Below, in pieces: positions 1-46,000 of a stretch of DNA of 64,000 nt. Numbering within the stretch: the first letter of the stretch is position 1; the number at the start of each line of letters is the position of its first letter. Source of the DNA: Streptomyces roseicoloratus (lineage in GTDB: Bacteria > Actinomycetota > Actinomycetes > Streptomycetales > Streptomycetaceae). The translations under genes were made by a program, and so were the position numbers. The stretch is taken from assembly GCF_004117935.1 (NCBI RefSeq), contig NZ_SDOY01000086.1, positions 55,589 through 119,588 on the forward strand, in the 5' to 3' direction. The notes beneath the pieces were generated by a model. It was not told the origin of the DNA. It searched no databases and saw only the letters and a list, made by a program, of their open reading frames with translations.

Positions 1-153
1 GATGTGGCTCGACACGTGGGTGTGACGGAAGGCGACACCGGGGCGCGGCGGGAAACAGACGCTCTGGTCGCTTTCCTGTAACGATCGCCGTCGGCTGTCA
101 CTCCTGTCGCTTAGGCTGCCTCGAGGCCACACCTGGGGGAGGGAGGCGCAGCC

Positions 154-11210: not shown

Positions 11211-11783
11211 TCAGGCGCCGAGTGAGGGGAGCACGACGGCGTCGAGATAGCTGCTGAGGAACTCGTGGTCCACCGGCTGATCGTCGATCAGCGGGCGGGC
11301 GACGAACGCTCCGATCAGCATGTGCGGGACGAGTGTCAGCGCCGGGTTTCCGGCGTCGACCTCGCCCCGCCGCACTGCTCGTTCCAGCACCTCGCCGAGG
11401 CCGGTCATCTCGGGTTCGATGAGCAGCTCGCGCAGCGCCTGGAGCAGTTCGGGGTTGTCGTGGACGGCATGGGCCAGACCCCGCATCAGCGCGGAGTCCT
11501 TCTCCATCTGGCAGTCGTCGGTCCGCTCCAGCATCGCCCGGAAGTCGCCGCGCAGGCTGCCGGTGTCGATCTCGGCGAGCGAGACCGGCTTGTTGTGGCG
11601 CAGCGCCTTGGCGACGAGTTCCGGCTTGCTCCCCCACTGGCGGTAGAGGGTGGCCTTGCTGGACCGGGTGCGGGCGGCGACGGCGTCCATGGTGAGGGCG
11701 TCGTAACCGACCTCGCGGAGGAGTTCGAGCACGGCCTCGTACAGCTCGGCCTCCCGCTCCGGGGTGAGCCTGCTGCGCGCCAT
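11211..11783 (-). CDS. TetR-family repressor
   Basis: A 190-residue TetR protein with its HTH at about residues 26-50 (DAVAARTRSSKATLYRQW region) and a ligand-binding C-terminal half. ATG 11783 is chosen because GGAGG sits 8 nt upstream. Two nearly identical palindromes lie just upstream. The MMPL exporter follows 120 bp downstream on the same strand, so the expected arrangement is a self-regulating repressor/efflux unit. Confidence 0.9.
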   Translation of the reverse strand: MARSRLTPEREAELYEAVLELLREVGYDALTMDAVAARTRSSKATLYRQWGSKPELVAKALRHNKPVSLAEIDTGSLRGDFRAMLERTDDCQMEKDSALMRGLAHAVHDNPELLQALRELLIEPEMTGLGEVLERAVRRGEVDAGNPALTLVPHMLIGAFVARPLIDDQPVDHEFLSSYLDAVVLPSLGA

Positions 11784-11801
11784 GCCTGACCTCCGTACCG
11801 A

Positions 11802-11864
11802 ACGAAACGGTTTCGTACACCACGACCATACCCCCGCCCTCAACGAAACGAAACCGTTTCGTAC
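11802..11864 (-). promoter_or_regulatory. Two TetR-type operators
   Basis: ACGAAACGGTTTCGT at 11802-11816 and ACGAAACCGTTTCGT at 11848-11862 share arms CGAAAC/GTTTCG and differ only in the central base pair. Their centres are 46 bp apart, and they occupy the start-proximal region of tetR, between tetR and the divergent tricorn gene. They are the obvious binding sites for the repressor. Confidence 0.75.
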
Positions 11865-11954
11865 GTGTCCTGGACCACAATCCCACCCCCTCTCCACCCC
11901 TTCTGTACTGACGTACGAGTTGCCTCACCCCCTTCGCGCGGAAAGCATGAGGAG

Positions 11955-21393: not shown

Positions 21394-22197
21394 CTAGAGC
21401 TCGTAGACCGCGGTGACGGGCGCGTGGTCGCTCCACCGCTCCGCGTGGGTGGCGGCCCGCTCCACGTACGCCTTGACGGCCTTGGCGGCGAGTCCGGGCG
21501 TGGCGACCTGGTAGTCGATGCGCCAGCCGGTGTCGTTGTCGAAGGCGCGGCCGCGGTAGGACCACCAGGAGTACGGGCCGTCCTGCTCGGGATGGAGGGC
21601 GCGGACGACGTCCACGTAACCGCCGTCGCCCTCATCGAGGACTCGGCTCAGCCAGGCCCGCTCCTCGGGGAGGAAGCCGGCGTTCTTCTGGTTGGCCTTC
21701 CAGTTCTTGAGGTCGGCCTCGCGGTGGGCGATGTTCCAGTCGCCGCAGACGACGACCTCGCGGCCATCGGCGGCGGCGCGCTCCTTGAGCTCCTTCAGGT
21801 ACGGGAGGAAGGCGTCCATGAAGCGGATCTTCTCGTCCTGCCGCTCGGTGCCGACCTCGCCCGAGGGCAGGTAGAGGCTGGCGACGGTGACGCCGGGCAG
21901 GTCGGCCTCGACGTACCGGCCGCTGCTGTCGAACTCCGCGACGCCGAAGCCGATCCGTACGGCGTCGGGCTCACGCCGCGTGTAGAGCGAGACGCCGGCG
22001 CGGCCCTTGGCGGCGGCGGGCGCGTGGACGGTGAACCAGCCCTCAGGGTCGCGGACCTCGGCGGGCAGCTGCGCCGCCTCGGCGCGCACCTCCTGGAGGC
22101 AGACCACATCGGCGGAGGTCCCGGCCAGCCATTCGACGAAGCCCTTCTTCGCGGCGGCGCGGAGACCATTGACATTCGCGGTCGTCAGTGTGAACAA
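21394..22197 (-). CDS. xth: Exodeoxyribonuclease III
   Basis: A 267-residue AP endonuclease / 3'-5' exonuclease for base-excision repair. Catalytic landmarks: N8 region (ANVNG), E36 in LQEVRAE, GDWNIAH in the middle and SDHAP at the C-terminus. The start is TTG 22197, supported by GAGGAG at 22204-22209 on the minus strand, 7 nt upstream. The prophage integrase stop is only 30 bp away, so the native promoter has been displaced and the gene must now be read from prophage DNA or a remnant promoter. Confidence 0.93.
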   Translation of the reverse strand: MFTLTTANVNGLRAAAKKGFVEWLAGTSADVVCLQEVRAEAAQLPAEVRDPEGWFTVHAPAAAKGRAGVSLYTRREPDAVRIGFGVAEFDSSGRYVEADLPGVTVASLYLPSGEVGTERQDEKIRFMDAFLPYLKELKERAAADGREVVVCGDWNIAHREADLKNWKANQKNAGFLPEERAWLSRVLDEGDGGYVDVVRALHPEQDGPYSWWSYRGRAFDNDTGWRIDYQVATPGLAAKAVKAYVERAATHAERWSDHAPVTAVYEL

Positions 22198-22227: not shown

Positions 22228-23832
22228 TCACGCCCAGGGGTCAGGCTCCCACATCGGATGCAGCTCGACGCCGAATCCCTTCCCCTTCCGCACCAGAGCC
22301 ACCCGGCGTAGGAGCTGCTTCAGCATGCCGTTCATCTCAACCGCGTTCAGCAGCTCCCACTCCTCCGCGAGACCGACGATGACAGGCTCGTAGTCCGTCT
22401 GCCTTGGCGCGAGCTCCACCACGGATACCCGCTCAAGTGCCGCCATGGTCGCCGCCTGCTGCTGGCGAATGCGGGCAACAGCATCCTCGTACTCGCCCGG
22501 TCCGTAGTCGTCCGGGTTCATGGCCCGGTCCGCACGGAGGTTGGCCAGCGCCTTCTTCTGCTTGGCGGCTTCGCCCTCGAGGCGCGCTCGCTCGCGGGCC
22601 GCTGTCGCTCGCCGGTCACCCGCCGGTGCGCGCTGCGCCGGCGCGCTGGGCGCCGCGTCGATGTCGACGGCAGCCTTGCTCAGCACCCATTCGTGCACGA
22701 GCTTCTCGACCTCGGCTCGCGCGGCGTACACCCCTTCGCAGCCATGCTTACTGGTTGTGGCGCGGCGCCCGCACATGTAGTTGTGGCCCTTGATCGAGGT
22801 GGGGCTGCCGTTGACGATGCGGATCGCGCTCTGGATGGGTGTGGTGCCGCGGCAGCCCGCGCACCGTACGAGGTTGGTGAGCGGGTAGAGAGCGGTCCGG
22901 GCGCGAGGCGGGGTCTTCTTCATTTGCTGCCGGCGGTCCTGGTATCGCTGCCAGATCTCGAGGTCGATGAGTTCTTCTTGGGCGCCGGGGAGGAAGACGG
23001 TGTTCGGGCAGTTCCCCTTCATGGAGGTGGAGCATTTGCACTCGGGGTTGTGGATGCGGAGTAGGCCCGCGCAGAAGCCGGAGTCCATGTAGCGGATGAG
23101 GGTCTGCACGGTCCACAGGCCGCCGCGGGTGGTGCGCCAGCCGCTGCTGTTCATCTCGTTGAGGAGGGCGTAGAACGGCTCGCCGTCGAGGTACTGCCGG
23201 TAGCGGTCGGCCATGACGGGGCCGGTGTCGGGGTCGGCGATGTACTTCTCGTCCTGGAGGGTGAAGCCGCCTTTGCCGTCGGGTAGACGTCGGGGGTGCC
23301 AGATGTAGCCGAAGCGGGGGCGGCCGGTGGCGGGGAGGTGGAGCTTGTAGCGGCGGTGGTCATGGGTCTCGCGCCACTGTTCGCCGCGGACGTCGGATTC
23401 ATAGGCGGCGAACTCGAAGAGGATGCCGCGGTGGAGGCGGCCGGTGGCGGTGCGGGCGTCGACTTCCTCCGTGGCGGAGGCGAGTTGGCCGCCGACATCC
23501 TCGAGGCGCTTGAGGTTGATGGGGACGCCGTCGCGGGTGCGCCCGAAGCGGTTGTACTTCCAGACGACGATGCCGCGTGCTTCGCCGCGTTCGACCCGTT
23601 CGATGCCGCTCATGATCTTGCGCTTGAAGTTGCGGCCGGTCATGTCGAGGTCGGTGATCCAGTCAGTGATCCGGCGTCGGGTGCGCTGAGCCCACGCGGT
23701 GATCGCTGCCTTCTGCAGCTCTGGGCTGATCTTCTCTTCTTTCCAGGTGGAGACCCGGATGTAGCCGAGCCAGGGCTCCCACTCCTCTTCGGAGTGAGAG
23801 CCCTGGAACGTTTCGGGGATGCGCCGTGTCAC
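22228..23832 (-). CDS. int: Large serine integrase
   Basis: A 534-residue site-specific recombinase. The catalytic serine is S28 in YIRVST, and YNRFGR (93-98) lies in the resolvase domain (about 20-165). The recombinase domain follows, with a zinc ribbon (C324, C327, C354, C365). A coiled coil at about 405-437 is expected to control directionality. An extra Cys-rich insert (C254, C265, C267, C275) is present. The start GTG 23832 overlaps the stop of the upstream membrane protein (GTGA). It integrates the phage at the xth 5' region; excision would need a directionality factor. Confidence 0.95.
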   Translation of the reverse strand: MTRRIPETFQGSHSEEEWEPWLGYIRVSTWKEEKISPELQKAAITAWAQRTRRRITDWITDLDMTGRNFKRKIMSGIERVERGEARGIVVWKYNRFGRTRDGVPINLKRLEDVGGQLASATEEVDARTATGRLHRGILFEFAAYESDVRGEQWRETHDHRRYKLHLPATGRPRFGYIWHPRRLPDGKGGFTLQDEKYIADPDTGPVMADRYRQYLDGEPFYALLNEMNSSGWRTTRGGLWTVQTLIRYMDSGFCAGLLRIHNPECKCSTSMKGNCPNTVFLPGAQEELIDLEIWQRYQDRRQQMKKTPPRARTALYPLTNLVRCAGCRGTTPIQSAIRIVNGSPTSIKGHNYMCGRRATTSKHGCEGVYAARAEVEKLVHEWVLSKAAVDIDAAPSAPAQRAPAGDRRATAARERARLEGEAAKQKKALANLRADRAMNPDDYGPGEYEDAVARIRQQQAATMAALERVSVVELAPRQTDYEPVIVGLAEEWELLNAVEMNGMLKQLLRRVALVRKGKGFGVELHPMWEPDPWA

Positions 23833-24174: not shown

Positions 24175-24606
24175 TCAGTTCTGTGCGGCCTGCCCCCCGC
24201 TCCGTCGGCGTCGTCTACGGAGGGTGTCAACCGTGTTCCGGAATAGCTCCCGATCGAGTTCGTCGTCGATCCCGAGGGCGTCGGCGGCTTCGTCGGTAGT
24301 CATGGGGTGGGGGGTTGGCGGTGGGTTCTGGACGGCTCGGAGTTCGGATTCCTCGAGGATGCCGGCCCTGACGAGGACCTCGCCTAGGGGGTGGTGGATG
24401 GCGTCGGCGAAGAGGGTGAGGACCTTGATGTCTTTGACGTCACCCGAGTTGATCAAACGTCCGACGCTGGCGGCGCTGATGCCCGAGTCCTCGGCGAAGC
24501 GGGTGCGGCCGCCGCTGCGAAGGCCGCTGACGTCGTAGCCCTGGCGGGTGATCTGCTCTTTTGCCCAGGCTGCGAACGCGGCGTTGGCGCTGATCTTGTT
24601 TTTCAT
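24175..24606 (-). CDS. Prophage repressor-like XRE protein
   Basis: A 143-residue protein with an N-terminal helix-turn-helix (about 32-72: RFAEDSGISAASVGRLI...) and an acidic then Arg-rich C-terminal tail. It is the best candidate for the lysogeny repressor: it is leftward, upstream of the integrase, and divergent from a Cro-like gene. ATG 24606 has no Shine-Dalgarno sequence, but AAGATA (TATCTT on its own strand) at 24613-24618 is at -12 to -7, as for a leaderless mRNA. Confidence 0.75.
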   Translation of the reverse strand: MKNKISANAAFAAWAKEQITRQGYDVSGLRSGGRTRFAEDSGISAASVGRLINSGDVKDIKVLTLFADAIHHPLGEVLVRAGILEESELRAVQNPPPTPHPMTTDEAADALGIDDELDRELFRNTVDTLRRRRRRSGGQAAQN

Positions 24607-24735
24607 GCTTGAAAGATAGCGCGACACGCGATGCCACGGAACACCCCCTTTCGGCCACCGAATATCGCTCGGGCGTGCGCATTAAAAATCGAACAGGTGC
24701 CCCTGACCTGTAGTTGAACCTCGAACGCCCTACAG

Positions 24736-39389: not shown

Positions 39390-39641
39390 CTACTCCTTCG
39401 GCTTCAGGTCGGTGCGGCGGCCCTGGGTCATCCCCGCCTGCCGCTTCGCCCAGTACTCGTCGAACCACGCCACCGGGTACTCCGGCCGGCTGCTCCCCGG
39501 ACGGAACGCGGGCGCAGGCCAGCCCTCCTTGGGGTTCGTCGCGAGCCGGTGGATCAGCGTACGGCTGCGCCCCACCCGCTCCGCGAGCTTCGGAATGGTC
39601 ATGGTCTCCCGCGGCTCCTCACTCTCCGGGGTCACGGACAT
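39390..39641 (-). CDS. AlpA/excisionase-like HTH protein
   Basis: An 83-residue protein with a MerR/AlpA-type helix-turn-helix (TIPKLAERVGRSRTLIHRL, about 15-33) and a wing-like Trp/Arg tail. ATG 39641 has GAGGAT immediately upstream, which could be a Shine-Dalgarno sequence or the -10 of a leaderless message. The small size and fold fit an excisionase-like DNA-bending protein. It is therefore a candidate directionality factor for the serine integrase, or simply a local repressor. Confidence 0.65.
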   Translation of the reverse strand: MSVTPESEEPRETMTIPKLAERVGRSRTLIHRLATNPKEGWPAPAFRPGSSRPEYPVAWFDEYWAKRQAGMTQGRRTDLKPKE

Positions 39642-39647
39642 GGGCAC

Positions 39648-39692
39648 ATCCTCTCGCGAGGTGTGGACATTGTCCACACTTCTCGCTACGGT
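39648..39692. promoter_or_regulatory. Symmetric divergent promoter with palindromic operator
   Basis: GTGTGGACATTGTCCACAC (39661-39679) is a perfect 9-bp inverted repeat with one central base. It supplies a TGGACA -35 in both directions. On +, the -10 TACGGT is at 39687-39692; on -, GAGGAT is at 39653-39648. Both spacers are 17 nt. The palindrome contains TTGTCCACA, the Streptomyces DnaA-box sequence. Confidence 0.6.
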
Positions 39693-39710
39693 CGAACCGG
39701 CAACAACGAA

Positions 39711-39749
39711 GGCCCCGGCCGGAGTTCGCAGCTCCACATGGCCGGGGCC
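39711..39749 (+). terminator. Leader hairpin (attenuator candidate)
   Basis: GGCCCCGGCC (39711-39720) and GGCCGGGGCC (39740-39749) form a perfect 10-bp stem; GGAG/CTCC inside could extend it. It lies about 12 nt after the predicted transcription start and 34 bp before the next gene. Confidence 0.5.
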
Positions 39750-39783
39750 AGACCCACCCACAACCTCACGAAGGAGCGGGTCC

Positions 39784-40056
39784 GTGTCCGAGCGTACCGA
39801 CCAGCCTCCCAACGTCCACAGCCTCCTCGGCAAGCTCGCCGACCGCATCGAGGCCAAGCACCCCACCAAGGCCATCGACGAGCGCCTCGTCCTCGCGCAG
39901 GCCCTTGTTGTCGCCGAGCACACCTACGGCCCCACCGAGGCCGCCGACGCCGCCGAGCGCGCCCTCATCGACGCCCTCCCGCCCGTCCGCCCGGACGACA
40001 CCCGTGCCGAGTACGCCACCCGCTGCCGCCTTGTCGGCCAGGAGGTCTCGGCCTGA
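39784..40056 (+). CDS. Small helical protein before the SpdB-like module
   Basis: 90 residues from GTG 39784, preceded by AAGGAG. Mostly helical, acidic and basic mixed (ADRIEAKHPTKAIDERLVLA). No domain recognised. Its stop overlaps the ATG of the membrane protein (TGATG), making it first gene of the module. Confidence 0.55.
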   Translation: MSERTDQPPNVHSLLGKLADRIEAKHPTKAIDERLVLAQALVVAEHTYGPTEAADAAERALIDALPPVRPDDTRAEYATRCRLVGQEVSA

Positions 40057-40889: not shown

Positions 40890-41386
40890 CCCCCACCCTC
40901 GGTGCCGTCCTCGTCGGCTTCGCGCTCCTCGTGTGGGAGCTGTTCGTCTGGTTCCCCGGCCTCAAGACCCTCCAGACCAACCTCATCGGCGCCGCCGGTG
41001 AGCTCCTGCCCTTCACCCTCTGCTGGTGCGTCGGCGCGCTCACCGTCATGGTCGTCGGCGGCCTCGTCGGCTGGATCGGCGACACCGCCCTGTGGGGCCT
41101 CAACACCTTCGGCGACGGCCTGTTGGTCTACGGCGTCGGCGCCCAGACCGGCACCGCCCCCGGCAGCACCGCAGCCCCACTCACCCAAGGCGGCCTGTTC
41201 ATGACCGCGCTCGTCCTCGTCGGCTTCCTCGCCCGCCGCCACCGCGGCGCCAAGGCGTCGAAGTGGCGCGGCTGGGGCGCCGGCGTCGGACTCGGCCTCT
41301 CCGCCGGCATCGCCCGCTACGCCGCCGTCCCCCTCGCCTCCGCCGTCAACCTCTCCGGCGCCTGGCTCACCGGGATGATCTCGTGA
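40886..41386 (+). CDS. Four-helix membrane protein
   Basis: 166 residues with four hydrophobic segments (about 3-24, 42-68, 98-115, 127-160). ATG overlaps the previous stop. Similar proteins sit next to SpdB-like genes in Streptomyces elements. Function unknown. Confidence 0.6.
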   Translation: MTPTLGAVLVGFALLVWELFVWFPGLKTLQTNLIGAAGELLPFTLCWCVGALTVMVVGGLVGWIGDTALWGLNTFGDGLLVYGVGAQTGTAPGSTAAPLTQGGLFMTALVLVGFLARRHRGAKASKWRGWGAGVGLGLSAGIARYAAVPLASAVNLSGAWLTGMIS

Positions 41387-41991
41387 CCACCGAACAGCAG
41401 CCCGACGTCGTGGCGGGGGAGCAGCCGAGCAAGCTCGCAGGCGGCTGCGTCCTCGCCATCGGCGCCGCACTCGCCGGAGGCATCGCCTACACCGTCCCCG
41501 AGACCGCCTACTACACGGCCGGGCTCCTCACCGCCGCCGGCGTCCGCCGCGCCCGCACCTGGGCCGCCGGGCGCCGGGGCGGTGAGCAGCCGGAGGTCGA
41601 GGACGCCGTCGACATCGTCGCCGCCCTCCACGAGCTCTCCCCCGGCGGCACCGCGAACGTCCGCCTCACCCAGCTCGCCGAAGGGATCGGCCTGCCTGAC
41701 ACCCGGACCGTCCGGGCCCTCCTCGACGAAGCCAGCATCCCGATCAAGGAAGTCCGCACGGGCGGGAAGGTCGGGCCCGGCATCCACGTGACCGCCATCC
41801 CCCGCTCCTGCGGCGCCCCTCCCGACGGTTGTTGGTGCGCTGTGACCAGCAACAACAACACCAACAACACCCCCGAGGAGGAGCCCCGAGAGGGGTTCCG
41901 TGTAGAGCACATCGGCCACGCCGGAACCGTCGTCCACGACCCCGCCGAAACCCGCCGCCGCCACGCCACCACCACGAGGAGCGCCCGATGA
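41383..41991 (+). CDS. Membrane-anchored winged-helix protein
   Basis: 202 residues: a hydrophobic hairpin (about 18-55), then a winged-helix-like domain (about 72-140: VRLTQLAEGIGLPDTRTVRALL) and a disordered tail with an Asn/Thr run. It combines a membrane anchor with a putative DNA-binding domain, a form seen in Streptomyces conjugative-element proteins. GTG overlaps the previous stop. Confidence 0.6.
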   Translation: MTTEQQPDVVAGEQPSKLAGGCVLAIGAALAGGIAYTVPETAYYTAGLLTAAGVRRARTWAAGRRGGEQPEVEDAVDIVAALHELSPGGTANVRLTQLAEGIGLPDTRTVRALLDEASIPIKEVRTGGKVGPGIHVTAIPRSCGAPPDGCWCAVTSNNNTNNTPEEEPREGFRVEHIGHAGTVVHDPAETRRRHATTTRSAR

Positions 41992-42041
41992 CCTACTGCG
42001 AGCACTGCGGCTGGTGGAGCCGCCCCCACTGCGGCCACTGA
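41988..42041 (+). CDS. 17-residue Cys/His microprotein candidate
   Basis: ATG 41988 overlaps the preceding stop by four bases and encodes a 17-residue peptide, mostly Cys, His, Trp and Gly, with C4, C7 and C15. The overlap resembles the other coupled starts of this phage, but a chance frame is possible. Confidence 0.35.
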   Translation: MTYCEHCGWWSRPHCGH

Positions 42042-42120
42042 CCGCCAGAACCCCCGGGCGTACCGTGGCCGCAGCACCCGATCGATTGCGGCCAGGCTGC
42101 GCCGCCTCGACGGAGGACCC

Positions 42121-42150
42121 AGCCCCGCCGGAACAGCGCCCGACGGGGCT
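42121..42150 (+). terminator. Hairpin terminator after the SpdB-like module
   Basis: AGCCCCG (42121-42127) pairs with CGGGGCT (42144-42150), followed by TCCTC. It lies 80 bp after the last gene of the module. Confidence 0.5.
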
Positions 42151-42244
42151 TCCTCACGTCCCGATTCCGCATACCCGCCGCCATCCCCCAGGCACGCGCG
42201 ATACGTTCACGACTCCGCCACACCAAGACCACAGCGAGGACACC

Positions 42245-42835
42245 GTGACGCAGCAGCCCTACCCGCCCCAACAGCCCAGCCCCAACCAGCAGTGGAGCCC
42301 GTCCCCCGGCCAGCCGTACCCCGGCGCACCGTACGGGCCTCCCCGCCCGCCGAAGAAGGGCATGGGCGCAGGCGCGATCGTCGCGATCGTCCTCGGCTCG
42401 CTCTTCGGCCTGTTCATCATCATCGGGGTCATCGGCGCGATCGTAAGCGACGACACCCACGCCAGCAGCGACAAGAGCAGCCCGGAACGCAGCACCGCCG
42501 CTGCGCCCGCGGCAAAGCCGTCCACGAAGGCGCCGGCCACCGCAGCTCCCGCGCAGAGCCAGGCTGACGAGTTCAAGGCGTTCGTGGCGAAGTCCGGTAC
42601 CGACGCGGAGAAGGGCGCGATCAAGCACGTCGTCAAGGTCACGGGCGCGGACGACCAGAACAACATCCTGGACACCGCCGACATCTACACCGACTTCAAG
42701 GGTGGCCTGATGAGCGACGACGCTGGGAAGGCGAAGCTGATCGCTGCCGCGTTCGCGGACTGGAAGCACTCGAAGAACGGGCTCGTGACGGTGTACGGCG
42801 AGGACGGCCAGCTCATCACCAACGGAAAGTTCTGA
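42245..42835 (+). CDS. Membrane-anchored secreted-type protein
   Basis: 196 residues from GTG 42245. A Pro/Gln-rich N-terminus (1-37) leads to one strong hydrophobic helix (about 42-70), a Ser/Ala/Pro linker (72-105) and a compact C-terminal domain (about 108-196). Predicted topology places that domain outside the cell. It stands alone between two terminators just before the late promoter, so it may be expressed in the lysogen. No established function. Confidence 0.65.
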   Translation: MTQQPYPPQQPSPNQQWSPSPGQPYPGAPYGPPRPPKKGMGAGAIVAIVLGSLFGLFIIIGVIGAIVSDDTHASSDKSSPERSTAAAPAAKPSTKAPATAAPAQSQADEFKAFVAKSGTDAEKGAIKHVVKVTGADDQNNILDTADIYTDFKGGLMSDDAGKAKLIAAAFADWKHSKNGLVTVYGEDGQLITNGKF

Positions 42836-42852: not shown

Positions 42853-42882
42853 TTGCGATGGACGAGACGTCTCGTCTACATT
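42853..42882 (+). promoter_or_regulatory. Candidate late promoter with 16-bp palindromic operator
   Basis: -35 TTGCGA (42853-42858), 18-nt spacer, -10 TACATT (42877-42882). The perfect palindrome GACGAGACGTCTCGTC (42861-42876) fills 16 of the 18 spacer positions. It precedes the structural-gene block. Confidence 0.6.
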
Positions 42883-42888
42883 GAAGCC

Positions 42889-42948
42889 GTCTCCGGCGTG
42901 CCCGGAAACAAGCGCCAGGCCCCGACCCTCCCCCGTGTCGGGGCCTTC
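42889..42948 (+). ncRNA. Predicted ~60-nt leader RNA
   Basis: Transcription from the promoter at 42853-42882 would start near 42889 and meet a strong hairpin terminator ending at 42946. The product would be a short RNA with almost nothing but the hairpin. This is a prediction from promoter and terminator spacing only. Confidence 0.35.
42917..42946 (+). terminator. Terminator immediately after the late promoter
   Basis: AGGCCCCGAC / GTCGGGGCCT forms a perfect 10-bp stem with a 10-nt loop, followed by TCTTCAT. It would stop transcription before the late genes unless it is read through. Confidence 0.7.
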
Positions 42949-43051
42949 TTCATGACTCCGCCGTCCGGCGATGGGGCGTAGAGAGCCTCCAGGGTCCATG
43001 GGGCCCTGCGACGTCGGCGACCGGGCGGCGGCCCACCACCAGGAGGTGCCC

Positions 43052-44167
43052 ATGCCCTTCCCCGACGGCACCCCCACCATCACCCTCACCGGCACCCTGC
43101 CCTGCCCCGTCGAAGGCACCGGATACGACGGGAAGATCGTCCTCACGCCCTCGTCGTACCTCGTCGACACCACCCGCGACGCCATCTACCTCGGCGGCGG
43201 AGAGAAGCCCATCGTCGACGGCGCGTTCTCCGCCACGATCGTCCCCAACGACGCCGCAGGCATCGGTCCATCCGGCTGGCGGTGGCTCATCAGCATCGAA
43301 CCCACCGGCGCCCCCAAGCGAGCTTTCTGGGCGTACGTCGCGGGCACCGGCACCGTCGACATCTCCACCCTGATCGAGGTCCCCGCCCCCGACGGCGGAT
43401 CGGCCGGCAGCGGCGCGGTGGCATCCGTGAACGGCAAGACCGGCGTGGTCGTCCTCACCTACGCGGACGTGGACGCCGAGCCCGAGGGCGCCGTCGCCGA
43501 ACACGCCGCGGCCAGTGACCCGCACGGCGACCGCACGTGGGCCACCGGCGAGTTCGCGGCCAAGAGCGCCAACCTGTCCGACCTGGCCAGCGCCGCGACC
43601 GCCCGCACCAACCTCGGCCTCGGCGACGCGGCCACCCTCGACGTCGGCACCACCGCCGGCACCGTCGCGGCGGGCGATGACCCCCGGTTCAGCGAGGGCG
43701 GCGGTAGCAGCACAATCCGCACGGCGAGCGTCCGCATCACCGACGACGACCTGTCCGGCCTCCCCAACGTCGCCTCCTGGACCATCGTTCAGACATCGGC
43801 CGGCACCCAGCTGAAGTGCTCGATCACAGCCGCCGTCGGCGACCGGATCCGCGCCCTGGGCCTGTTCATGTACGACGGTGCGCACTTCCTCGACTGGAAC
43901 ATGCTCACCAGCGCGGGCGCCCTCGGCACCTACGCGGCGTCCGGCACGACCACGCCGCTCGGCGAGGGCAACCCGACCATGTACCCGTCGACCGCGTTCA
44001 AGGGCTACACGACCGCCGAGTTCTTCACCGTCGAAGCCGGCCACCTCAACGCCGGGCAGGTCACCGTGGCGCTCGCCCACCAAGGCACGAACGCCGGCAA
44101 GGTCTACGCCCACACCCTGTACCCGTGGCGGCTCCGCCTGGAGAACATCGGCCCCGAACCGGCCTGA
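43052..44167 (+). CDS. Tail-fibre-like protein
   Basis: 371 residues. The centre has the repeated elements of phage tail fibres: SVNGKTGVVVLTYADVDA and ARTNLGLGDAATLDVG...VAAGDDPRF. The C-terminal part looks like a beta-rich receptor-binding or jelly-roll domain. AGGAGG precedes the ATG. Its position before the terminase genes rather than among tail genes is unusual. Confidence 0.7.
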   Translation: MPFPDGTPTITLTGTLPCPVEGTGYDGKIVLTPSSYLVDTTRDAIYLGGGEKPIVDGAFSATIVPNDAAGIGPSGWRWLISIEPTGAPKRAFWAYVAGTGTVDISTLIEVPAPDGGSAGSGAVASVNGKTGVVVLTYADVDAEPEGAVAEHAAASDPHGDRTWATGEFAAKSANLSDLASAATARTNLGLGDAATLDVGTTAGTVAAGDDPRFSEGGGSSTIRTASVRITDDDLSGLPNVASWTIVQTSAGTQLKCSITAAVGDRIRALGLFMYDGAHFLDWNMLTSAGALGTYAASGTTTPLGEGNPTMYPSTAFKGYTTAEFFTVEAGHLNAGQVTVALAHQGTNAGKVYAHTLYPWRLRLENIGPEPA

Positions 44168-44180
44168 TCGGAGGTGCCTG

Positions 44181-44717
44181 GTGACGAATCAGTACCGCGT
44201 GGACAACTACAACACCCCCGTCACCGACGAGGAACGCGCCGAGATCCGCCGGCTCCACGCCGAAGGCCACGGCCGCAACGAGATCTCTCGCCGCGTCGGG
44301 CGCAGCGCCCGCACCATCAGCGCGCAGGCCGACCAGATGGGCCTCACCTTCGATCGCACCGCCACCGCCGCTGCGACCGAGGCCAAGGTCATCGACGCCC
44401 GCGCCCGCCGCGCCCGCATCATGGAGCAGCTCTACGACGTCATCGAGGCCGACCTCGCCTACCTGAAGAAGCCCGACACCTACGACCTCGTCGAGGTGTC
44501 CGCCGGCAAGGCCGTGCACTTCGCCACCGAGCGCCTCCCCGCACAAGACCGGCGCGCCCTGATCACCGGCATCAGCACCGCGATCACCGCCACGTCCCGC
44601 CTCGAAGCGCTCGAAGGCGACCCGGGCGTCGCCGGGGCCACTTCGCTGCTCCTCAACCTGTCCGATGCCTTCCGTCAGGCGGCCGGCCCCGTGGAGGACG
44701 ACACCGGGGAGGGCTGA
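44181..44717 (+). CDS. terS: Terminase small subunit
   Basis: 178 residues. N-terminal HTH (about 18-50: RRLHAEGHGRNEISRRVGRS), then helical oligomerisation region. It recognises packaging sites on concatemeric phage DNA. GTG 44181 follows GGAGG; its stop overlaps the large subunit start (TGATG). Confidence 0.8.
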   Translation: MTNQYRVDNYNTPVTDEERAEIRRLHAEGHGRNEISRRVGRSARTISAQADQMGLTFDRTATAAATEAKVIDARARRARIMEQLYDVIEADLAYLKKPDTYDLVEVSAGKAVHFATERLPAQDRRALITGISTAITATSRLEALEGDPGVAGATSLLLNLSDAFRQAAGPVEDDTGEG

Positions 44718-46000
44718 TGCTCGACTCCCTCCCTCTGTCCGCCAAGCAGATCCGATCGATCGCCCACTCCACCGCCCGCATCAACTTGTGGCACGGCGCG
44801 ATCCGCTCCGGGAAAACGATCGCGAGCCTGATCGCCTTCCTGATCGCGATCGCGAGCGCCCCCTCATCCGGCCTGATCGTGATCGTCGGGCGCTCGCTGC
44901 AGACCATCGAGCGCAACGTCCTCGACCCCCTTCAGGACGAAGTACTGTTCGGCCCCGTCGCCCGGCTCGTGCAGCACACCCGCGGCGCCACCACCGCGGT
45001 CATCCTCGGCCGCACCATCCACCTGATCGGCGCCGCCGACTCCCGTGCCGAAGGCAGGCTCCGCGGCCTCACCGCGTGCCTCGCTTACGTCGACGAGGCC
45101 ACCCTCGTCCCCCGCGGGTTCTGGAACCAGCTCCTCGGCCGCCTGAGCGTCCCTGGGGCACGCCTCTTCGCTACCACCAACCCCGACAACCCTGGGCACT
45201 GGCTCCGCAAGGAGTTCATCAACCGCGCCGGCCACCTCGACCTCAGACACTGGCAGTTCACCCTCGACGACAACCCCTCGCTCGACCCGGCGTACGTCGC
45301 CGCGCTGAAGGCCGAGTACGTGGGCCTGTGGTACCGGCGGTTCATCCTCGGCCACTGGGTGCAGTCCGAGGGCGCGATCTACGAGATGTTCGACGCCGAG
45401 CGGCACGTCGTCCGTGAACTCCCGCACATCGAACGCTGGCTGTGCGACGCGATCGACTACGGCACCGTCAACCCGTTCGCCGACTTGCTGCTCGGCCTCG
45501 GCCGCGACAACCAGGGCCGCGCCGGGCTGTACGTGGTGTCGGAGTACAGGCACGACTCCCGGACCGCCCGCCGGCAGCTCACCGACTCCGAGTACTCCGC
45601 CGCCCGCCGCCGCTGGCTCGCGTCCGTCCCGCAGCCCCAAGCCGGGAACGTCCTCGGCGTACGCCCGGAATGGACCGTCGTCGACCCGTCCGCCGCCTCG
45701 TTCATCGAGCAGCTCCACCGCGACGGCGTCACCGGCGTCACCCCCGCCGACAACTCCGTCCTCGACGGCATCCGCGGCGTCGCCAACCTGCTCGCCTCCG
45801 AACGGCTGTTCATCCACGCCTCCGCCACCGGCCTCATCGACGAACTGCCCGGCTACTCGTGGGACGACGAGGCCGCGGAGAAGGGCGAGGACAAGCCGAT
45901 CAAGCTCGAAGACCACTCCTGCGACGCCCTCAGGTACGGGGTGCGCACGACCGAGGCCCTGTGGCGGCCGCACATCCCAACCCTGGAGGTGGCCGCATGA
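44717..46000 (+). CDS. terL: Terminase large subunit (PBSX/Terminase_3 type)
   Basis: 427 residues: packaging motor ATPase and nuclease. Walker A GAIRSGKT (27-34), Walker B with catalytic acid YVDEA (124-128), coupling motif ATTNPD, and a C-terminal RNase H-like nuclease domain starting near DYGTVNP. Typical length for the family. Confidence 0.93.
   Translation: MLDSLPLSAKQIRSIAHSTARINLWHGAIRSGKTIASLIAFLIAIASAPSSGLIVIVGRSLQTIERNVLDPLQDEVLFGPVARLVQHTRGATTAVILGRTIHLIGAADSRAEGRLRGLTACLAYVDEATLVPRGFWNQLLGRLSVPGARLFATTNPDNPGHWLRKEFINRAGHLDLRHWQFTLDDNPSLDPAYVAALKAEYVGLWYRRFILGHWVQSEGAIYEMFDAERHVVRELPHIERWLCDAIDYGTVNPFADLLLGLGRDNQGRAGLYVVSEYRHDSRTARRQLTDSEYSAARRRWLASVPQPQAGNVLGVRPEWTVVDPSAASFIEQLHRDGVTGVTPADNSVLDGIRGVANLLASERLFIHASATGLIDELPGYSWDDEAAEKGEDKPIKLEDHSCDALRYGVRTTEALWRPHIPTLEVAA

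Follow-up and report, generated by a model that had tools for sequence, protein, structure and literature searches.

Positions 42853–42954 of the window (the whole 64,000-nucleotide stretch analysed here, part of contig C79 of a 7.6-Mb genome) probably hold a late promoter gated by an operator, with a leader terminator behind which the late genes of a prophage would need antitermination to be expressed. Sequence comparison established which parts make up the unit and how they are ordered, that the unit recurs in relatives, and that the operator matches sites in other genomes. As a recurrent unit at the head of packaging operons (for one subgroup, 86 distinct viral loci and presence in 10 of 295 genomes), it offers a defined fragment for antitermination tests outside the lambda world. 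The operator match suggests that the prophage may listen to an antibiotic-response regulator of its host; if it does, prophage induction by natural products becomes directly testable.

To our knowledge, late gene control in temperate Streptomyces phages has been little studied. Titles and abstract openings were consulted on actinophage late promoters, antitermination and macrolide-glycosyltransferase regulators, and on Streptomyces prophage RNA-seq, phiC31 terminators and prophage MerR/terminase loci; none of these titles and openings described the unit.

The predicted promoter unit and its locus

The prophage starts near position 22181, adjoining a serine recombinase gene on the minus strand (22228–23832). 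A stretch of 41,820 bp of the prophage is present twice in the assembly with 0 differences, window positions 22181–64000 being identical to contig C114:1–41820, and the first base of C114 is the host–prophage junction. This duplicate may be an excised copy, a second copy or an assembly effect. The late region is ordered as an accessory gene (42245–42835), the promoter/terminator unit, the tail-fibre-like gene and the probable small and clear large terminase subunits. The features are as follows (L numbers denote loci).

24175–24627: repressor, from the PHROGs scan of prophage proteins
39390–39923: excisionase-like regulator, from the same scan
41383–41991, plus strand: conserved 202-aa protein upstream of both units, one PHROG of unknown function
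42038–42153, plus strand: second unit, M0, of the same build (CTGACC-17-TACCGT), ahead of the accessory gene
42245–42835, plus strand: 196-aa gene, likely membrane-anchored and probably accessory (moron), directly upstream of the promoter unit
42853–42858, plus strand: −35-like box TTGCGA, read from the sequence (TTGCGT in L040, TTGCAC in L058)
42861–42876, unstranded: perfect 16-bp palindrome GACGAGACGTCTCGTC in the −35/−10 spacer, putative operator, containing the core RGACGNNNCGTCT
42877–42882, plus strand: −10-like box TACATT, read from the sequence, spacer 18 nt
42889, plus strand: expected transcription start, 7 nt past the −10 box
42892–42907, plus strand: leader motif TCCGGCGTGCCCGGAA, in which a 5-bp hairpin may form around RUGCCC; L037, L040 and L058 have similar versions
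42917–42954, plus strand: predicted intrinsic terminator, stem 42917–42926/42937–42946, tail TCTTCATG
42955–43038, plus strand: extra 84-nt structured leader element, stem GCCGTCCGG/CCGGGCGGC, between the terminator and the ribosome site
43052–44167, plus strand: first late gene, tail-fibre-like, 371 aa, ribosome site AGGAGG at 43041
44181–44717, plus strand: HTH protein (HTH_38), likely the terminase small subunit to judge from its place
44717–46000, plus strand: terminase large subunit (Terminase_6N, Pfam)

The first-pass annotation had described TTGCGA, a perfect 16-bp palindrome, TACATT and an intrinsic terminator ending about 60 nt past the expected start, ahead of the structural genes. 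All four were found where it had placed them, the predicted stem spanning 42917–42946, and the promoter–operator–terminator unit lies directly upstream of the late operon, as its relatives do at the head of the packaging operon. The terminator stem is GC-rich, with 10 bp and a loop of 10, and its tail (TTCTTC) is T-poor. This stretch folds at −21.2 kcal/mol, with a z score of −4.0. It starts 34 nt past the −10 box, and the hairpin ends 105 nt ahead of the first late gene. Transcription starting at 42889 would yield an RNA of about 60 nt. The fold of the leader in the window was no better than that of shuffles (z = −0.61).

In the mechanism that we propose, a TetR-type repressor bound to the palindrome would gate initiation. 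After its release, polymerase starting at 42889 would usually stop after about 60 nt, leaving a short RNA, unless it had been modified, and the tail-fibre and terminase genes would be transcribed only when termination is overridden. Antitermination could be brought about by a phage factor or by the leader RNA itself.

The single parts were compared with chance. Six perfect 16-bp palindromes were counted in the window against 3.7 expected by Markov simulation, and the palindrome was rejected as a stand-alone signal on this count. A strict sigma-70 scan of 40–46 kb gave 0 promoters, the window promoter being a loose match only. A looser pattern, TTGN3-16..19-TAN3T, had one match on the whole plus strand, which is this promoter, with 1.5 expected. 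Taken alone the parts are thus weak against chance; their combination is significant because of the comparative evidence from relatives.

M0 contains a perfect 8-bp hairpin (42066–42073/42087–42094) and a predicted terminator from 42121. Stretches resembling M0 were recognized by eye in at least five loci (L276, L278/L279, L288, L290 and L296). The 84-nt element behind the terminator is absent in L037, L039 and L040, in which the ribosome site follows the terminator immediately; a similar stretch is present in L038 and, by eye, also in L054.

Recurrence of the unit and rival explanations

Loci with the same late gene were collected by a search of the genus and then by scans of genome contigs (7 loci) and viral contigs (31 loci). 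The upstream DNA was read where the start of the gene could be placed, giving 34 distinct loci; L057 is the window's own copy in the viral collection. By eye, ten of the 34 carry a complete unit (promoter boxes, short leader, terminator) immediately ahead of the gene, namely the window (L057), L037, L039, L040, L058, L059, L069, L071, L079 and L081, the last nine having the terminator at the same place. A fixed promoter-plus-terminator test was passed by 7 of the 34 distinct loci and, among 1440 control windows taken from these loci, by 13 (binomial probability 2e-8); the loci are not fully independent and, because they are related, such probabilities are rough. The palindrome is retained in L040 and L058 with one and two central changes, respectively, its outer arms and both promoter boxes being kept; L037 and L059 have the promoter boxes without the palindrome.

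By eye, 24 of the 34 loci are without the unit, showing a hairpin alone or nothing, and 27 of the 34 fail the fixed test. The hairpin that stands without the unit, for example in L060–L064 and L083, is GC-rich. A hairpin type GTCCCGCCGTCCG..CGGACGGCGGGAC with no U tail replaces the unit ahead of the same late gene in L060–L064, L066–L068, L070, L078, L080, L083 and L084 (by eye).

In many relatives, for example L060–L064 and L083, nothing but a hairpin separates the upstream gene from the same late gene, promoter boxes being absent, which favours a plain boundary at which the hairpin would end accessory or early transcription from upstream, the promoter being weak or incidental and the late genes being served by leakage or by reading from far upstream. 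The loose sigma-70 match of the window promoter points the same way. We consider this explanation unlikely, since it requires neither the fixed spacing nor the conserved leader of a larger group of relatives, B3.

B3 was found by searching viral contigs for L069-type promoters with a sequence pattern. The pattern matched 101 loci, 88 of them distinct, and the group comprised 86 after L125 and L127 had been dropped as false by eye. Conservation of the promoter in B3 is partly built in, because the group was collected by promoter pattern; spacer length, neighbouring genes and terminator were not part of the selection. The spacer measured 17 or 18 nt in 86 of 86 loci, the pattern having allowed 11–21 nt. 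The leader is strongly conserved (72 sequences, mean column identity 67%). Within the genus, the B3 promoter pattern was present in 10 of 295 genomes, the reversed control giving 0.

Under a strict stem definition (9 bp or more, 7 GC pairs, starting 24–60 nt past the −10 box), 76 of the 86 B3 loci scored, as did 19 of 516 random windows. A looser definition (7 bp, 5 GC) gave 79 of 86 and 126 of 516; the strict count alone carries weight because the control is already high under the loose definition. A stem plus a T-rich tail was found in 46 of 88 loci against 11 of 440 controls. A terminase gene lies on the same strand within 6 kb in each of the 39 loci that have 3.5 kb or more of downstream DNA, the call being made by BLAST clustering with a protein that Pfam identified as a terminase large subunit. 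In 17 of the 79 units of the looser stem set the next start codon lies no more than 45 nt from the stem, which leaves little room for another promoter there. Regulated readthrough is favoured by the position of the late genes behind the terminator and, in the tight cases, by this scarcity of promoter room.

The conserved leader is also what would be expected of a small-RNA gene, whose stand-alone product of 60–100 nt would act in trans, its position before the late operon being secondary. RNAalifold applied to B3 paired the terminator stem only, with four of its seven pairs changed on both sides, which is in keeping with such a gene. We regard it as quite unlikely: the unit heads the packaging operon wherever this could be tested (39/39) and in the tight cases (17/79) lies within the 5′ leader of the next gene, and the leader sequence differs between groups by eye, so that no common trans-acting seed is evident. 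A translational attenuator, with a leader peptide read from RUGCCC (in most members this would encode the initiating residue followed by proline) and ribosome stalling coupled to terminator folding, is very improbable and was rejected, since the L081 peptide would stop after five codons and the distance from motif to terminator varies by single nucleotides among close relatives, so that no reading frame is kept.

A hairpin in the 5′ leader has only moderate support across loci, and its folding in the window and in L040 speaks against the preferred reading, a late promoter with regulated readthrough. In 21 leaders picked by hand its mean z score was −1.4; it is strong in L039, L081, L089 and L100, weak in the window and absent in L040 (z = 0.91).

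Several further observations were made in these loci. A tRNA-like sequence with an odd anticodon (L156:4114–4190) interrupts a late-head unit between its leader hairpin and its terminator. L128, L129, L138 and L165 carry inserts of about 70 nt between the leader motif and the terminator (by eye). A T-rich hairpin CGGGCGAC..GTCGCCCG, nearly identical and with a T run, was seen in 9 of 52 loci (L093, L135, L139, L156, L164, L174, L184, L185 and L189), mostly about 380 nt before the terminase. It was tried as a second terminator and dropped, since it could belong to a coding region. Additional terminators, of whatever kind, were counted in 12 of 52 loci and, on the opposite strand, in 7 of 52. 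For these two reasons no argument was built on a second terminator.

Searches against Rfam at the gathering score gave 0 matches for the window and for ten loci with the unit. Among isolated phages, there were 0 DNA matches to the window unit or to the B3 unit L126, and the protein of gene 43052 gave partial tail-fibre matches only.

The operator class and candidate regulators

Of 198 other Streptomyces genomes, 6 contain the exact 16-mer GACGAGACGTCTCGTC and none its reversed control. Five of these sites lie ahead of genes sharing one protein start, which is macrolide-glycosyltransferase-like, and one lies ahead of a TetR gene. For one of them, L045, the NCBIfam name is macrolide-inactivating Mgt, at 744 bits against a cut-off of 700. 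A relaxed operator, AGACGANNCGTCTCGTCTA, occurred in 36 of 121 genomes against 2 of 121 for the control; the window copy matches it with one mismatch and the L040 copy with none. Thirty relaxed sites were read, of which 14 stand beside a glycosyltransferase-like start, with L256 a fifteenth. Sites at TetR genes are L245 and L248, plus L258 if its later start is right, and two copies are in phages (L257 and L266). The genes beside the sites in L244, L260 and L270 presumably encode ABC proteins; the remainder are other or unclear.

The relaxed operator AGACGANNCGTCTCGTCTA lies upstream of the TetR genes L049, L245 and L248, whose proteins match TetR models at scores below the model cut-offs. Three AGACG..CGTCT core copies were noticed by eye upstream of position 1600 at the L245 TetR gene. 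In the genome of the window, the TetR nearest to L049 (69%; C146:90652–91260) has the core GAGACGTGGCGTCTC upstream, and the glycosyltransferase site is one position off the relaxed form. Judged by these matches, the palindrome is a member of an operator class that occurs in many genomes of the genus. The element that the first-pass annotation had taken as the operator of a late promoter is a perfect palindrome in the spacer and is not private to the phage, the class being found at macrolide-glycosyltransferase and TetR genes.

A profile built from four TetR starts was run over the frames of the window and of contig C114. It found none in the prophage, the single match being in the host flank (11214–11924). 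The repressor is probably encoded by the host, because the profile found no such TetR in the prophage and the operator class is common in the genus.

The first-pass annotation had recognized no Q-like antiterminator. This holds for the scanned part of the window, where antiterminator families were found for none of 25 prophage proteins (5 + 10 + 10) from 23.8–44.7 kb scanned in PHROGs, the frames having been picked by base composition, by which a short gene may be missed. The B3 relatives, however, offer a candidate in a small MerR-like protein encoded right next to the promoter. In 85 of 86 loci (the exception is L209) the reading frame whose stop codon is the TGA of the −35 box is MerR-like by profile, and the one member scanned in PHROGs was also MerR-like. 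Sequence searches of solved structures with this protein gave short or weak matches only, the MerR-like query had no match in isolated phages, and no MerR-like gene was found in the window.

In the window branch, the nearest candidate antiterminator would be the 202-aa protein (41383–41991), which is suspected, by eye only, of binding DNA. It had no Pfam match, and a sequence search of solved structures gave no convincing match. It has 146 homologues, and those among the 120 listed are hypothetical or unnamed except for two single automatic labels. L120 and L304 carry a homologue of the 202-aa protein, then a MerR-like gene and then the unit, an order by which these two loci link the window branch with the B3 branch.

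A wider reading can be offered only tentatively and is more doubtful than not: Streptomyces prophages would share an unrecognized late switch, composed of a promoter with a spacer operator, a structured leader and a terminator, in which the MerR-like protein is a new kind of antiterminator, and the window promoter would have been rewired to the host TetR of macrolide-inactivation genes. If the rewiring were true, one and the same chemical signal would act on the late genes of the prophage and on the macrolide defence of the host.

Comparison with known systems

The closest likeness is to the lambdoid Q/pR′/tR′ (6S RNA) system, which likewise combines a late promoter holding a DNA site (a putative one in the window) in its −35/−10 spacer with an early terminator and, beyond that, the late operon. 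A late promoter followed by a terminator ahead of the late genes, as expected of a Q-type switch, was found here at the level of sequence. The B3 relatives share two further features: immediately upstream they have a small gene for an HTH protein, and 13 nt past the −10 box they have a −10-like hexamer. The hexamer was best at this shift (TACAAC in 35 and AACAAC in 20 of 86 loci; mean 3.2/6), and lambda has its −10-like element in the same geometry, at a shift of 13 nt.

There are also differences. The window terminator begins 34 nt past the −10 box. The sigma-dependent pause hexamer is absent in the window, the best match at shifts of 10–17 being 2/6; no antiterminator family was seen among the 25 window prophage proteins and no Q gene was found just upstream; the upstream protein of the B3 relatives, at about 66 aa, is MerR-like. 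According to PMC6606751, two elements are needed in Q systems: one that is −10-like and lies past the start, and a Q site within the −35/−10 spacer. The binding element of 21Q consists of direct repeats, whereas the window site in that spacer is a palindrome. The analogy with lambda pR′/6S RNA drawn in the first-pass annotation is supported as a working model, but the window lacks the pause element. By this comparison the unit resembles pR′/tR′ and is not a member of that class, because an antiterminator family among the 25 proteins and a −10-like pause are both lacking.

Operators of the TetR type at Streptomyces macrolide-glycosyltransferase genes share the core RGACGNNNCGTCT and the promoter layout with the window, as in L253 and L273 (TTGCAC, palindrome, TA). 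In contrast to these, the window site belongs to the putative late promoter of a prophage and is followed by a predicted terminator, and no such TetR gene was found in the prophage by profile.

The early-region terminators of actinophage phiC31 are reported to be without poly-U tails (Ingham et al. 1995). They are like the window terminator in having GC-rich stems and T-poor tails between phage genes; those of phiC31 sit in the early region, whereas the window unit heads the late operon. In put/nut RNA antitermination, a hairpin of the leader RNA ahead of terminators acts in cis, and the possible leader RNA hairpin before the predicted terminator in the window could act in the same manner.
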